From assembly GCF_900155365.1 (NCBI RefSeq), contig NZ_LT699738.1:192558-256557 (forward strand): a DNA stretch of 64,000 bases. Direction: 5' to 3'. The stretch comes from Collinsella bouchesdurhonensis. GTDB taxonomy: Bacteria > Actinomycetota > Coriobacteriia > Coriobacteriales > Coriobacteriaceae. Shown piece after piece: positions 15,071-62,107 of the stretch. Below the pieces are notes generated by a model. The model saw nothing but the letters and a program-made list of their open reading frames with translations, searched no databases and had not been told where the DNA came from. A program made the translations under genes and the position numbers. The stretch's first letter is position 1, and every line of letters starts with the position of its first letter.

Positions 15071-15115
15071 AAGGCGTCCGCACTGCAACTCGGTTCGCAG
15101 TGCGGACGCCTTTTA
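15071..15115. terminator. Bidirectional terminator between tex and the JetD-like gene
   Basis: AAGGCGTCCGCACTGC and GCAGTGCGGACGCCTT form a perfect 16-bp stem between two convergent genes. TTTTAT follows on the plus strand. Confidence 0.9.
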
Positions 15116-15170: not shown

Positions 15171-17171
15171 TTAGCTGTTGAGGATGCGGTCAAGGCTTCC
15201 GGAGCTTGAGTCGCGATAATCGGCCGAGGTTAGGATCTCCTGTGGGATACGGCCGCCCTCACGCAAGATATTGCGGAACTGCACGCGCGTGACCATGGGC
15301 AGGTCGGCGATAGCGCGTGCGAGATTTTGCGGCACGCCCTGATTCTCGGATGCATGCTCCACCCCGCGACCGTCCTTCAAACGACGCTTGTGAGCCGCCA
15401 GCATAGCCTTGTACATACCCGCGTGCATGCGAATCTTCGTATTGTTTGCCGCACGGGCCTGTTCGACGATGCGCGCGCCTTCGCGGTCGATATCGCCCGC
15501 ATAGTACACATAGTCGTATCCATAGCCGATATCGGACAGATAATCGTCCAACGCATGCGAAACGCTCGCCTTGCAACCGCTGCCAAAAATTACGCCGCTC
15601 ACGCGCACGCCAAAAAGCTTGACCGACGATTTGCCGCGCAGCAGACGCGCGATCTCGTCGTACGTATCGATATTCTCGACCATGATGAACGGCTTATTGG
15701 CACCGATGCCAAAGAAGCTCGTGAAATGATACGGGCGCTGGGGCGTAATCTTGAGCGCTGCCACGTTAACGCCGCGGTCGTTCAGGCGCTTGAACAGGCG
15801 CTCACCGCGCTTACCATCAAAGGCCTTCTCATCGTTAAAAATTTCAAAGGCGCGCTGACGACGCGAGGCGTACGGGGTATCCATGCCGTCCGTTTGCTCG
15901 ATCCACGTGGTAATGGCCTCAAAATCATGCGCAAGCTGCTGCTTGGCGTTTTGATGACCGTTTTCGCGCTCGGCGGTCTTCGCCATCGGACGATTGTCAA
16001 CGCACGTAATCTTGGCATATTGGACGCGATCGCCGTGCGCAACAGCAGAAAGCGGCAACACGGTTGCCACCTTTGCGAGTTGCCCTCGAATCACGCGTAC
16101 GATAGAGCGAGATTCGGGCCGGACGGAATCGTTCGAGCGATGAGCCCCCGTTGTCTGAGTCGAAGGCGAATCCTGCTTGTGAGACGACTTGACCGCCTCG
16201 GAACGCCCGGGCTTTCCCTTTCGCTTCCTGTTCGCAGGAGTCTCCTTTTTTACCGAAGAGCGAGTCTCTCCCTCCTTAGCGTCCTCATGCTTTCGCTGAG
16301 TATCTCGCTCGGCAAAAGCAACGCGACCGCGATTTGCCTCCGCCTGCTTAAATGCTGCGCCTTTCTTTGAAACGGCTGGCTCTTTGGGAACGAGCGCTTT
16401 TTTCTCGGCAGGAGCGGACGGAGCATCCTGAGCCTGCGGCTGCTGCTTTTTGGGTCCCATGGCGTGAACTTCTGGCTCTTGGGCCTTCGGCTCGGCGAGC
16501 CTTGGCTGCTCGACGGAAGTGTCCCGGGTATCCCGTGATGCTTTCTTGTCCTGCGTGCGACGATGTACACGCGCTCCTCGGCCCACCTTCGAGACAAAGG
16601 GCGCTGGCGTATCGTTTGGGCTTGCCTGCTCTTCCTTTTGAGCTGCCTCGGAAGGCGCGGTGGCGGGCAATTCCTGGTCGCGACGGGTATCCTCGGCTCG
16701 AGGTACCGCGGGCTTCGCTGATCCAGAATCTTTCTCGGACCCGCACGCCGCCGCTGCGGGTGCAGCCTGTCCAGCGTCTTTAGCCTCAGCAGCCAACGTC
16801 TCGACAGGCGCCGGCTCCTCCTCGACGTCAAAGCCATCGTTCAGATCCTCGGCGCCATCAACAATAATAAGCTCGGAAACCTTTGCGCAAATCGAATAGA
16901 TGGCAGGGCGCCCGTCGACACCGGTCTCATCGATGCGCTCGATAAGCCCCGACTTGATAAACTCATCGCGTAGACGCTTGGTATCGATATCCTTATCGAT
17001 CGAGCGGAAAAGCCCGCCCAGTGAGCTCGACTTGATTTTGAGGACCTTACGGCCCAATAGACCGCGCGAAATAACAGCTGCCTGCTTGGAGCTCAACGAG
17101 GTGAGAGCAGCGATGCGACGCGCCAGCGCATCGACATCGTTTTGATTATCGCTATACAAAGATGAAGACAC
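15171..17171 (-). CDS. Orphan JetD-like (DUF2220/Wadjet) TOPRIM protein with winged helix and long disordered linker
   Basis: About 666 residues from a GTG start, chosen because GAGGAGG lies 5 nt upstream (an upstream GTG at 17195 has none). Residues about 10-105 look like a winged-helix DNA-binding domain. Residues about 115-375 are low complexity (Glu, Lys, Ala, Pro and Gln rich), very likely disordered. The C-terminal ~290 residues match the Toprim part of JetD, the nuclease subunit of Wadjet. Acidic Glu499 lies in FIMVENIDTYDE and Asp560/Asp562 in YYAGDIDREGARIV, as in topoisomerase VI A/Spo11-like nucleases. No jetA, jetB or jetC is present: neighbours are tex and cstA. Function is unknown. 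Nuclease activity is inferred from the metal-binding triad. Confidence 0.75.
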   Translation of the reverse strand: MSSSLYSDNQNDVDALARRIAALTSLSSKQAAVISRGLLGRKVLKIKSSSLGGLFRSIDKDIDTKRLRDEFIKSGLIERIDETGVDGRPAIYSICAKVSELIIVDGAEDLNDGFDVEEEPAPVETLAAEAKDAGQAAPAAAACGSEKDSGSAKPAVPRAEDTRRDQELPATAPSEAAQKEEQASPNDTPAPFVSKVGRGARVHRRTQDKKASRDTRDTSVEQPRLAEPKAQEPEVHAMGPKKQQPQAQDAPSAPAEKKALVPKEPAVSKKGAAFKQAEANRGRVAFAERDTQRKHEDAKEGETRSSVKKETPANRKRKGKPGRSEAVKSSHKQDSPSTQTTGAHRSNDSVRPESRSIVRVIRGQLAKVATVLPLSAVAHGDRVQYAKITCVDNRPMAKTAERENGHQNAKQQLAHDFEAITTWIEQTDGMDTPYASRRQRAFEIFNDEKAFDGKRGERLFKRLNDRGVNVAALKITPQRPYHFTSFFGIGANKPFIMVENIDTYDEIARLLRGKSSVKLFGVRVSGVIFGSGCKASVSHALDDYLSDIGYGYDYVYYAGDIDREGARIVEQARAANNTKIRMHAGMYKAMLAAHKRRLKDGRGVEHASENQGVPQNLARAIADLPMVTRVQFRNILREGGRIPQEILTSADYRDSSSGSLDRILNS

Positions 17172-17321
17172 ACAAGCCTCCTCGAAGATAAACACAAATG
17201 TCTTTATGGTACCCCATGGAATCTAAACGAGGCTTCTTGCTCGAACGATTCCACGGGGAGTGCGGCGCAACAGGACTCCTTGCAAGCAGTTGGGCGTACC
17301 CCGGCACCACGTATCGCCAAA

Positions 17322-17361
17322 ATAAAAAAACGCCCGAGTGCGGCTGCAGAGCACTCGGGCG
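17322..17361 (-). terminator. Rho-independent terminator of cstA
   Basis: On the minus strand GCACTCGGGCG and its complement form an 11-bp stem followed by TTTTTTT, 37 nt after the cstA stop. Confidence 0.92.
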
Positions 17362-28609: not shown

Positions 28610-29062
28610 ATGACCGTCACCATGGAAAAAGAGCACCTGACCGAAGACCTGCTCAAGCGGCTGCTCGCGAGTTCGAGCGTCGAAAGCTATCTCGATACGC
28701 ATGAGACGGTCAACACGACGCTGACGGAATTTCTTCGCGAGCTCACCGATGCTCGCAGGCTCAAAAGGTCCGAAGTTGCGCGCGAATCGGGCCTCAATCC
28801 CACAGTGGTGTACGACATTTTCGCCGGCAAGAGCAGACCAGGACGCGACCACGCTATCATGCTGGCGCTCGGCATCGGCTGCACACTCTGCGAAACGCAG
28901 CGCCTCCTAAGACTCGATAGCGTCGCCGAACTCTGGTGCAAGGACCGCCGCGACGCCATCGTCATCTGGTGTATCAAACACGGCATGAGTCGCGCCTGCA
29001 CCGACGATGAGCTCTACCGTCTAGGTGAAAGGACGCTTCTGGGAACAAATTCGCTCAGATAG
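28610..29062 (+). CDS. XRE-family DNA-binding protein, kinase-associated type
   Basis: 150 residues, with AAGGAGA before the ATG. A helix-turn-helix domain is visible (RLKRSEVARESGLNPTVVYD, then IFAGKSRPGRD). A C-terminal helical region with CETQRLLRLDSVAELWCKD and HGMSRACTDDEL follows. In Coriobacteriia such small XRE proteins are often followed by a divergent Ser/Thr kinase. Here only the kinase N-terminus remains 140 nt downstream. A 17-nt palindrome sits in between. Confidence 0.82.
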   Translation: MTVTMEKEHLTEDLLKRLLASSSVESYLDTHETVNTTLTEFLRELTDARRLKRSEVARESGLNPTVVYDIFAGKSRPGRDHAIMLALGIGCTLCETQRLLRLDSVAELWCKDRRDAIVIWCIKHGMSRACTDDELYRLGERTLLGTNSLR

Positions 29063-30933: not shown

Positions 30934-31221
30934 CTACCAGCCCTTTTTTTCGCGAATGGCGCCAAGGGCATCCTTTGCGTCCGACGTCTTTCCGTCAAGG
31001 ACGTCAGCATAGCCACGCATCAAGCCTTGGTAAACATCCATCTCGCATTTTTGCGCGCGCTCCTTGGCCGATACCATCCGGTCAAAAGCCGCGGCATCCA
31101 TCACCACCACGCTCGCTTTTCCGTTGCGCGTGAGATAAATAGGCTCTTGGGTTTTTTCCAATGTATCGATAAGGGCTGTTTGGTTGCGATTGAACTCCGA
31201 AAGCGATGCAACGGCTGGCAT
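30934..31221 (-). CDS. Phd/YefM-family antitoxin
   Basis: 95 residues. The N-terminal Phd fold is visible (SLSEFNRNQTALIDTLEK, then EPIYLTRNGKASVVVMDA). A C-terminal charged helix (DVYQGLMRGYADVL) would bind the toxin. GAAAGGAG lies upstream. It is translationally coupled to the toxin, and its promoter carries iterated TACAGTAAA sites. Confidence 0.85.
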   Translation of the reverse strand: MPAVASLSEFNRNQTALIDTLEKTQEPIYLTRNGKASVVVMDAAAFDRMVSAKERAQKCEMDVYQGLMRGYADVLDGKTSDAKDALGAIREKKGW

Positions 31222-59602: not shown

Positions 59603-62107
59603 CTACTCGTTATCGCCGGCAGTCATTTGCGTAGCCGACAGCTGGCCCTCGGTTGCCGCAGCGGCATCGGGCCACACCCAGCTAGTAAAGGCCGGATGAT
59701 CGTAGCCCTCGTCCACGGCAAACTGGAAGGCCTCCTCGCGGAAGTTCTCCCACTCCTCAATCTGCGCCGCCCACTTCTGAGCATCCACCATGCGCAGGGC
59801 GTCGGCGGCAAGCGCCCAACGGTCCATGTTGTTGAGGCGCAGCATGTCGAAGGGAGTCGTCGTGGAGCCCTTCTCCTCGTAGCCGTGCACGTGGAAGTTG
59901 TCATGGTTGGGGCGATCCCAAATCAGACGATGAATCGTGCCCGCATATGCGTGGAAGCAGAACAGGACCGGCTTATCGGTACCAAAGAACTCGGCAAAGC
60001 GCTCGTTGGAGATAGCCTGGTCGTTCTCGGCCGTGCTCTTAATCTTGAGTAGGTCGACCACGTTCACGAAGGTCGCCTTCACACCGATCTTCTTGAGCAT
60101 ATCGAGTGCCGCCAGCGCCTCGAGCGTAGGCACGTCGCCGCAAGAAGCGATAACCAAATCGGCCTCATCAAGGCTGGAAGCACTGCTTGCCCACTTCCAC
60201 TCGGCAAGGCCCTCTTCAAGCTCGGCACGGGCCTCGTCCACCGTGATGAACGTCGGCGCCGGCTGCTTGCCACAGAAGATGGCGTTCACGCAGTTCGTGG
60301 ACGTATACGCGCGCTCGGCCACGGCAAGCGCCATATTTGCATCGCACGGATAGTACGCGTTGACCACATGGGTGTCGTTTGCCTTGTTGAGCAGCAGATC
60401 CACAAAACCGGGATCCTGATGCGAGAATCCGTTGTGGTCCTGACGCCACACGTGGCTGGACAGCAGAATATTCAAGCCGGAGATGGGAGCACGCCAGGGA
60501 ATCTCGCGCACGCAGGCCTCAAGCCACTTGCAGTGCTGGTTGACCATGGAGTCGACGATATGCACAAACGACTCGTAGGAGCTCCACACGCCATGACGAC
60601 CGGTGAGGGTATAGGCCTCGAGGAAGCCCTCGCACTGATGCTCGGACAGCTGCTCGACCACGCGGCCGGTGGGCGCCAGCAGCTCATCGTTGTCGGCGTC
60701 GGCATAGTGGCCGGCATCCCACTGCTTGTGCGTCACCTTGTAAGCGTCCTGCAGGCGGTTGGATGCAGTCTCGTCCGGACCGAAGATACGGAAGTCGTCG
60801 TTGAGCTCCATGACATCGGCGGTATAGGCACCAAAGACGCGCGCCGCTTCGGTTGCGCCCCAGCCATGGCCTTTCTCCGCCACGGGAACCTCATGGGCAT
60901 GGATGTCGGGCAGCGTGAGCTCGTGGCGCACCTTGCCACCGTTTGCATTGGGGTTGGCACCGATGCGCAGGTCGCCTGTAGGCATAAAAGACGTTACCTC
61001 GGGACGAATCTGGCCCTCTGCGGTAAAGAGCTCCTCGGGCTTATACGAGCGAAGCCAGCTGCGCAGCACGCGGAAGTGCTCATGCGTATCCTTGGCAGAT
61101 GCCAGAGGCACCTGGTGCGCACGCCAGCTGCCCTCGGTCTTCTTGCCGTCGATATGCTTGGGGCACGTCCAGCCCTTGGGCGTGCGGAACACGATCATCG
61201 GGTAGACGGGACGCGTCTCGTCGCCCGCCTCGGCGCGTGCCTTGATGTCGCAGATCTTGTTAAAGACCTCTTCGAACAGATCGGCAAAACGACGATGGAT
61301 GGAGCTGTGGGGCTCGTTGTCAAAGCCGGCCACAAAGAAGTGTGGCTCGTAGCCCATGCCCTCAAAGAACTTAGTGAGCTCTTCGTCGGAGATGCGCGCC
61401 AGAATCGTGGGGTTGGCGATCTTATAGCCGTTGAGGTGCAGGATGGGCAGCACGATGCCATCGGTCTTGGGATTCACAAGCTTGTTGGACTGCCAAGAGG
61501 TCGCAAGCGGACCGGTCTCGGACTCGCCATCGCCCACCACGGCCACGGCAAGAAGGCTCGGGTTATCCATCACGGCGCCGTACGCGTGGGACAGGGTGTA
61601 GCCAAGCTCGCCGCCCTCGTGGATGGAGCCCGGAGTCTCGGGTGCAAAGTGGCTGGGAATGCCGCCGGGATAGGAGAACTGACGGAAGAACTTCTGCAGA
61701 CCGGCCTCGTCATCGGTGATGTCGGGACGAATCTCACGATAGGTGCCGTCGAGCAGGGACTGCGCGGTACCGGCCGGGCCGCCGTGACCGGGGCCCATAA
61801 GGAAGATGGCGTTTTGCTGGTGGTCGGCAATAAGGCGGTTTACATGGCCAAACAAAAAGTTCACGCCCGGAGTGGTGCCCCAGTGGCCCACCAGGCGATG
61901 CTTGACGTCGGGGCGGCCAAAGTCGCGCACCTCGCCCGTCTTCTCATCGACAAAATCCTTGCGCATCAAAGGATTAGAGCGCAGGTAGATCTGGCCGACG
62001 GAGAGATAGTTGGCGCAGCGCCAATACTTCTCCACTCCCTCGAGCTCCTCGCTGGAAACGGGCGCATCGAGCTTTTTCCACGGCGTTCCGATAACGGGCT
62101 GAGTCAT
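59603..62107 (-). CDS. xfp: Xylulose-5-phosphate/fructose-6-phosphate phosphoketolase
   Basis: 834-residue thiamine diphosphate enzyme that splits Xu5P or F6P with phosphate to acetyl-P and an aldose phosphate. The N-terminus shows [39 protein letters not shown] and GPGHGGPA. The ThDP region is [16 protein letters not shown], and late motifs are [16 protein letters not shown] and [14 protein letters not shown] lies before the ATG at 62107. This would give the cell a Bifidobacterium-like bypass. Regulation by the adjacent LacI-type protein and a long leader is likely. Confidence 0.96.

Follow-up and report, generated by a model that had tools for sequence, protein, structure and literature searches.

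JetD is seen as the executioner in an SMC machine of four parts, and must be restrained while the motor has yet to meet a small circle. In JetD, the N-domains are able to close over the cleavage groove, and JetABC is thought to move them; type I JetD on its own cleaves DNA at high concentration only (PMC10586767). MksG cleaves DNA without MksBEF, and its residues E236 and D279 are required for cleavage (PMC10123090). Among the papers searched, there was no report of a stand-alone JetD, or of Wadjet in connection with Collinsella. Here we describe a JetD-like gene in a 64,000-nucleotide stretch of DNA from Collinsella bouchesdurhonensis (the window, to which unprefixed coordinates refer).

The gene reads on the minus strand of the window from a GTG start codon at 17171 to a stop at 15171 (666 codons; Table 1), and an orthologue in RefSeq is labelled 'hypothetical protein'. 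Purifying selection together with conserved synteny excludes a chance open reading frame. cstA lies upstream on the same strand and tex converges from the downstream side, in line with the housekeeping neighbours mentioned in a preliminary description of the locus. Because a hairpin with a T-run stands between cstA and the JetD-like gene and another hairpin faces tex, the gene probably forms its own transcription unit. Nearly every examined carrier had its long-linker orthologue between a peptidoglycan-binding protein gene and cstA; in the source genome, tex lies between the peptidoglycan-binding protein gene and the JetD-like gene. Further along the window, a small protein encoded at 30934-31221 (minus strand) has, by eye, the look of a Phd/YefM-type antitoxin. 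tsaD, cstA and the JetD-like gene are also present on NZ_OY725717.1 (L184), an 899,693-bp C. aerofaciens 'plasmid 6' in PLSDB that is probably a mislabelled piece of chromosome.

Table 1. Features of the JetD-like gene, its product and the flanking sequence, in window coordinates.
Feature	Position	Strand	Basis
Stand-alone JetD-like CDS, 666 aa, GTG start	15171..17171	-	Orthologues and purifying selection
AGGAGG ribosome-binding site, 5 bases 5' of GTG	17177..17182	-	Sequence reading
Terminator-like hairpin, 18 pairs, between JetD-like gene and convergent tex	15071..15112	.	Hairpin scan
Terminator-like hairpin and T-run after cstA	17331..17361	-	Sequence reading; loop too long for hairpin scan
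Predicted N-terminal winged-helix domain, aa ~8-100	16872..17150	-	Model pLDDT 80-87; fold matches; dN/dS 0.065
Predicted disordered charged linker, aa ~101-400, length varies among orthologues	15972..16871	-	pLDDT mostly 26-43; composition; dN/dS 0.29
Hydrophobic linker segment, aa ~357-376, SIVRVIRGQLAKVATVLPLS	16044..16103	-	p 0.005 for the window protein against shuffled linkers
C-terminal JetD-type TOPRIM and preceding helices, aa ~401-666	15174..15971	-	PADLOC JetD3; model; MksG/JetD fold matches
E499, TOPRIM glutamate, aligned to MksG E236	15675..15677	-	Invariant; profile alignment
D560-I-D562, TOPRIM DxD; D560 aligned to MksG D279	15486..15494	-	Invariant; profile alignment
P643-Q644-E645, aligned to type I JetD EQE; second glutamate alone retained	15237..15245	-	Alignments

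In the predicted structure, the 666-aa protein consists of a winged helix (aa ~8-100), a disordered linker of ~300 aa and a C-terminal TOPRIM domain (aa ~400-666). The preliminary description had rightly predicted the disorder of the linker but put its length at ~260 residues. Alanine, glutamate, proline, glutamine, lysine, serine, arginine, threonine, glycine and aspartate make up 82% of its composition. Structure comparison placed the N-domain model among winged helices, Fur/PerR and MukE being examples of its matches (Z 5-7). The full-length model was poor over the TOPRIM part, and the C-domain was therefore folded alone, with a mean pLDDT of 84.5. Purifying selection on the gene is strong, and the C-domain is its most constrained part: dN/dS among C. 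aerofaciens-group orthologues was 0.016 for the C-domain, 0.065 for the winged helix and 0.29 for the linker. A hydrophobic segment similar to SIVRVIRGQLAKVATVLPLS was found 65-115 residues ahead of the TOPRIM-domain motif in the orthologues compared; it outscored shuffles in the window protein and in part of the others, and was non-significant in some orthologues. This segment is a possible docking motif. A conserved-looking basic cluster in the linker was rejected as a candidate, the window protein scoring no better than shuffles (p 0.51).

By profile, predicted fold and active-site residues, the C-terminal domain is of the JetD-type TOPRIM class. The PADLOC JetD3 profile matched aa 418-654 (2e-30), whereas Pfam JetD_C (PF09983) stayed sub-threshold at 17.1 of 22 bits, and DUF2399 likewise fell under its cut-off. 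The preliminary description had called for the model to be compared with JetD and with Spo11/TopoVI-A. In that comparison, with Foldseek also run, the C-domain model had a TOPRIM fold whose best solved structures were MksG (8b7f, Z 10.9 over 200 residues) and JetD (7til, Z 9.6), followed by topoisomerase VI-A (Z about 8), Spo11 (Z 6.8) and, lower down, further TOPRIM proteins; the long structural alignments had an rmsd of about 10 Å, so that the C-domain superposes piecewise only. In a PDB sequence search, the single sequence gave chance matches only, and a profile of the Collinsella C-domain brought no improvement. With a profile of the wider family, the top three PDB sequences were JetD 7til, JetD(E248A) 8q72 and MksG 8b7f, at E-values of 0.009-0.03 that are weak singly, all three being expected relatives. 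This profile paired VENID and GDID with VENLD and GDLD of MksG, and in the 8b7f chain the distance from the VENLD glutamate to the first GDLD aspartate is 43 residues, matching the E236-D279 spacing.

The metal triad read at the outset from VENIDTYDE and GDIDREG is present in motif and alignment alike. E499, D560, D562 and PQE (643-645) were invariant in 18 aligned Collinsella proteins, including a short C. stercoris copy, and 12 diverse relatives, comprising stand-alone proteins and JetDs of complete type III Wadjet operons, all kept the triad and the final QE.

The source genome contained a single JetD-like gene, and the absence of jetABC noted beforehand extended from the neighbourhood to the whole genome. 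JetA was found by neither single-protein nor profile search (the profiles excluding those for type I and II JetA), and a profile search found no JetB (DUF4194). No convincing JetC was found by profile either: the best match reached 15.8 bits, vs 46.7 and 54.4 bits in two Wadjet genomes, and the matches were of a weak coiled-coil type, in frames of chromosomal-SMC or SbcC size, for a profile that picks up coiled coils generally. A jetABC set lacking its own jetD, for which the genome was also checked, was not found. Nor does the locus form a Wadjet or MksBEFG operon, as the JetD-like gene adjoins tex and cstA, not jetA, jetB or jetC.

The preliminary description had called the protein an orphan, which holds for JetABC but not in the sense of a one-off. 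Across the order Coriobacteriales, JetD3-like genes occurred in 91 of 299 genomes and a convincing JetA in 2 (G206 and G264), with an 18-bit fragment as the JetA match in G200; draft genomes limit the absences in these counts. The stand-alone JetD3-like state is therefore the rule in the order. The long-linker gene is essentially restricted to one Collinsella clade. Roughly one in three Collinsella genomes lacks it, as do many related genera, and it is therefore non-essential. A tree of a neighbour protein placed the carriers in a single clade (99/96) that also held two non-carriers, of which one genome was 87% complete. Several non-carrier genomes had the flanking genes adjacent or near, and no gene remnant was detected between them. 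Non-carrier genomes averaged 1.96 vs 2.29 Mb for carriers (p 0.0005, the related genomes not being independent). Scans of viral contigs turned up no Collinsella-type gene on phage or viral records; the other stand-alone type appeared at one locus, in a copy with 80% identity. The gene is inherited vertically at a fixed locus.

The other stand-alone JetD3-like proteins, from genera of the same family and from a second family (f5), formed a separate clade (100/99), here termed f1/f5, marked by the start KLTEEEQ and the motif GIASGLVRLR. Within genus g13, 24 of the 25 good genomes had a stand-alone JetD. Long branches left the root of the JetD tree and the number of JetABC losses unfixed. A profile of the Collinsella winged helix matched the N-domain of the other coriobacterial stand-alone JetDs with a score of 33.4, where the highest of 60 shuffles gave 16.4. 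That N-domain in turn matched the pooled N-termini of coriobacterial Wadjet III and g68 stand-alone JetDs at 23.6 (best shuffle 15.6); matched directly against the Wadjet JetD N-termini or the pooled profile, the Collinsella winged helix was not significant. Given this two-step connection through an intermediate clade, we believe that this winged helix likely corresponds to the N-domain standard in JetD, with the linker likely an expansion at a hinge already present there. The domain plan had been described as unusual for JetD; this stands for the long linker but not for the winged helix, linked indirectly to the usual N-domain. What sets the protein apart is the length of its linker and the lack of JetABC.

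Several of these relatives have recurrent surroundings. The g13 loci (L102:6167-10391, L104:6075-10231, L108:6727-10707 and L114:10070-14070) combine the stand-alone JetD with a recurrent neighbour set: a protein weakly similar to a Ser/Thr kinase of the window, one of ~139 aa like that at window 28610-29062, and a small membrane protein or lipoprotein. In other f5 genera (L110, L113, L115), the gene adjoins a 72-75% identical homologue of the 834-aa protein of window 59603-62107, in a housekeeping-like neighbourhood fixed per lineage. A further stand-alone clade in g68 has two subtypes (L098:9601-10728, L099:8194-9336, L100:9619-10926, L101:9255-10553), and the g68 genomes G206 and G264 also have type III Wadjet genes. 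In C. stercoris (L055:9315-18036; same place as L165), a 379-aa JetD-like gene with no long linker and no JetABC immediately precedes a pPIWI-RE defence set (matches to PprRE, PprDinG and PprPIWI).

We propose that the protein is probably a metal-dependent, dimeric DNA endonuclease of the JetD/MksG kind, and judge it fairly probable, from the sequence and model comparisons, that it is an active nuclease working without a JetABC of its own. By analogy with MksG and JetD, two copies would probably dimerise through their C-terminal TOPRIM domains, E499, D560 and D562 would hold Mg2+ or Mn2+, and DNA would be cut. The N-terminal winged helices might bind DNA, or might act like the CAP domains of JetD by covering the cleavage groove and controlling it. 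The ~300-residue linker would let them act at a distance, in place of clamping and release by a JetABC motor. So long a tether would uncouple the two halves of the protein. Control would then have to lie in how the winged helix binds DNA, in the amount of protein or in a resident factor docked on the tether. The cellular task would most likely be the processing of aberrant, entangled or extrachromosomal DNA, a stable task being suggested by vertical inheritance, the fixed site and strong constraint. If the protein is a nuclease, we lean slightly towards chromosome maintenance, with resident restriction of plasmids or phages close to an even prospect. Against the nuclease reading, a lone JetD could be nearly inactive, since type I JetD needs high concentration to cut by itself. 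A broader proposal, which we regard as unlikely, is that in Coriobacteriales the Wadjet effector has become a family of core-genome nucleases that need no SMC motor of their own and act on the cell's chromosome, for example through programmed or entanglement-resolving double-strand breaks, with the tethered winged helix replacing JetABC for targeting.

The alternative that survives best, although still somewhat unlikely in our estimate, is a resident single-gene defence nuclease that is stably inherited and cuts incoming plasmid or phage DNA unaided, the winged helix recognising foreign DNA and the linker giving reach. Plasmid restriction is the only known job of JetD, and a defence origin is plausible because the C. 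stercoris relative adjoins the pPIWI-RE set. However, the window gene has a fixed locus among housekeeping neighbours and one main carrier clade with little turnover, the near-constant presence in g13 also counts against this reading, and JetABC, the source of Wadjet specificity for circles (PMC10586767), is missing here.

A change of partner is quite unlikely. The protein would dock, through the linker motif or the winged helix, on SMC-ScpAB or another resident factor and cut DNA that SMC extrudes abnormally, making a Wadjet from the housekeeping condensin. JetABC is the sole missing part, the source genome has an SMC-size protein (a 1178-aa frame), and the recurrence of the hydrophobic linker segment among orthologues is expected of a docking motif; yet that segment does not rise above shuffles in every orthologue, and the gene is unlinked in position to smc or scpAB.

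We think it very improbable that the TOPRIM domain is non-cutting and the protein a DNA-binding regulator or structural nucleoid protein. Such a role would fit the missing JetABC and the proline found where the type I EQE begins with glutamate, but the triad is invariant, no part of the protein is more constrained than the C-domain, and JetDs from complete type III Wadjet operons have the same proline. The topoisomerase VI-like option of the preliminary description finds little support and is the least probable: a TopoVI-A/Spo11-like enzyme, in which a winged-helix tyrosine breaks both DNA strands covalently, in a reversible or programmed way, would suit the fold likeness noted above and the invariance of Y92 in the Collinsella winged helix, but TopoVI-B (PF09239) had no match in the source genome while archaeal controls did match, the other stand-alone clade has either Y or F at the position aligned to Y92, a pattern that suits a structural residue of the wing, and the counterpart domain of MksG offers no candidate tyrosine (PMC10123090).

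The preferred nuclease reading bears on how Wadjet effectors are restrained. Here a lineage keeps the executioner alone, in about 30% of the sampled genomes of the order and nearly all good g13 genomes, with the motor nearly absent. Two questions become testable: how a JetD can be both harmless and useful when JetABC is missing, and whether there are bacterial DNA nucleases of the JetD kind that run free of SMC or are driven by the host SMC. Collinsella and its relatives are common gut bacteria, and the gene could affect their acceptance of plasmids.

Among described systems, type III JetD (PADLOC JetD3; JetD_C PF09983) shares a C-terminal TOPRIM domain that aligns over its full length, including the invariant E, D, D and QE, and a winged-helix-type N-domain at the same position. 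Within jetABC operons, however, these proteins have 330-353 aa (L097, L176-L178), vs 666 aa, a ~300-aa linker and no JetABC here. The type I proteins MksG of C. glutamicum (8b7f) and JetD of P. aeruginosa (7til) are the top solved structural matches, and both tested catalytic residues of MksG align, with E499 and D560; they differ in belonging to mksBEFG or jetABCD operons, in N-domain size and in having the full EQE. The f1/f5 stand-alones resemble the window protein in the lack of JetA in the sampled genomes, in a homologous N-terminal winged helix and in housekeeping-type neighbours, and are a core gene in g13, whereas they form a separate clade of proteins of mostly ~390-700 aa with varied, often shorter linkers, at other loci. 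Topoisomerase VI-A and Spo11 share the overall fold of the C-terminal part, and are set apart by a B subunit that the source genome lacks and by a catalytic tyrosine that finds no support here.
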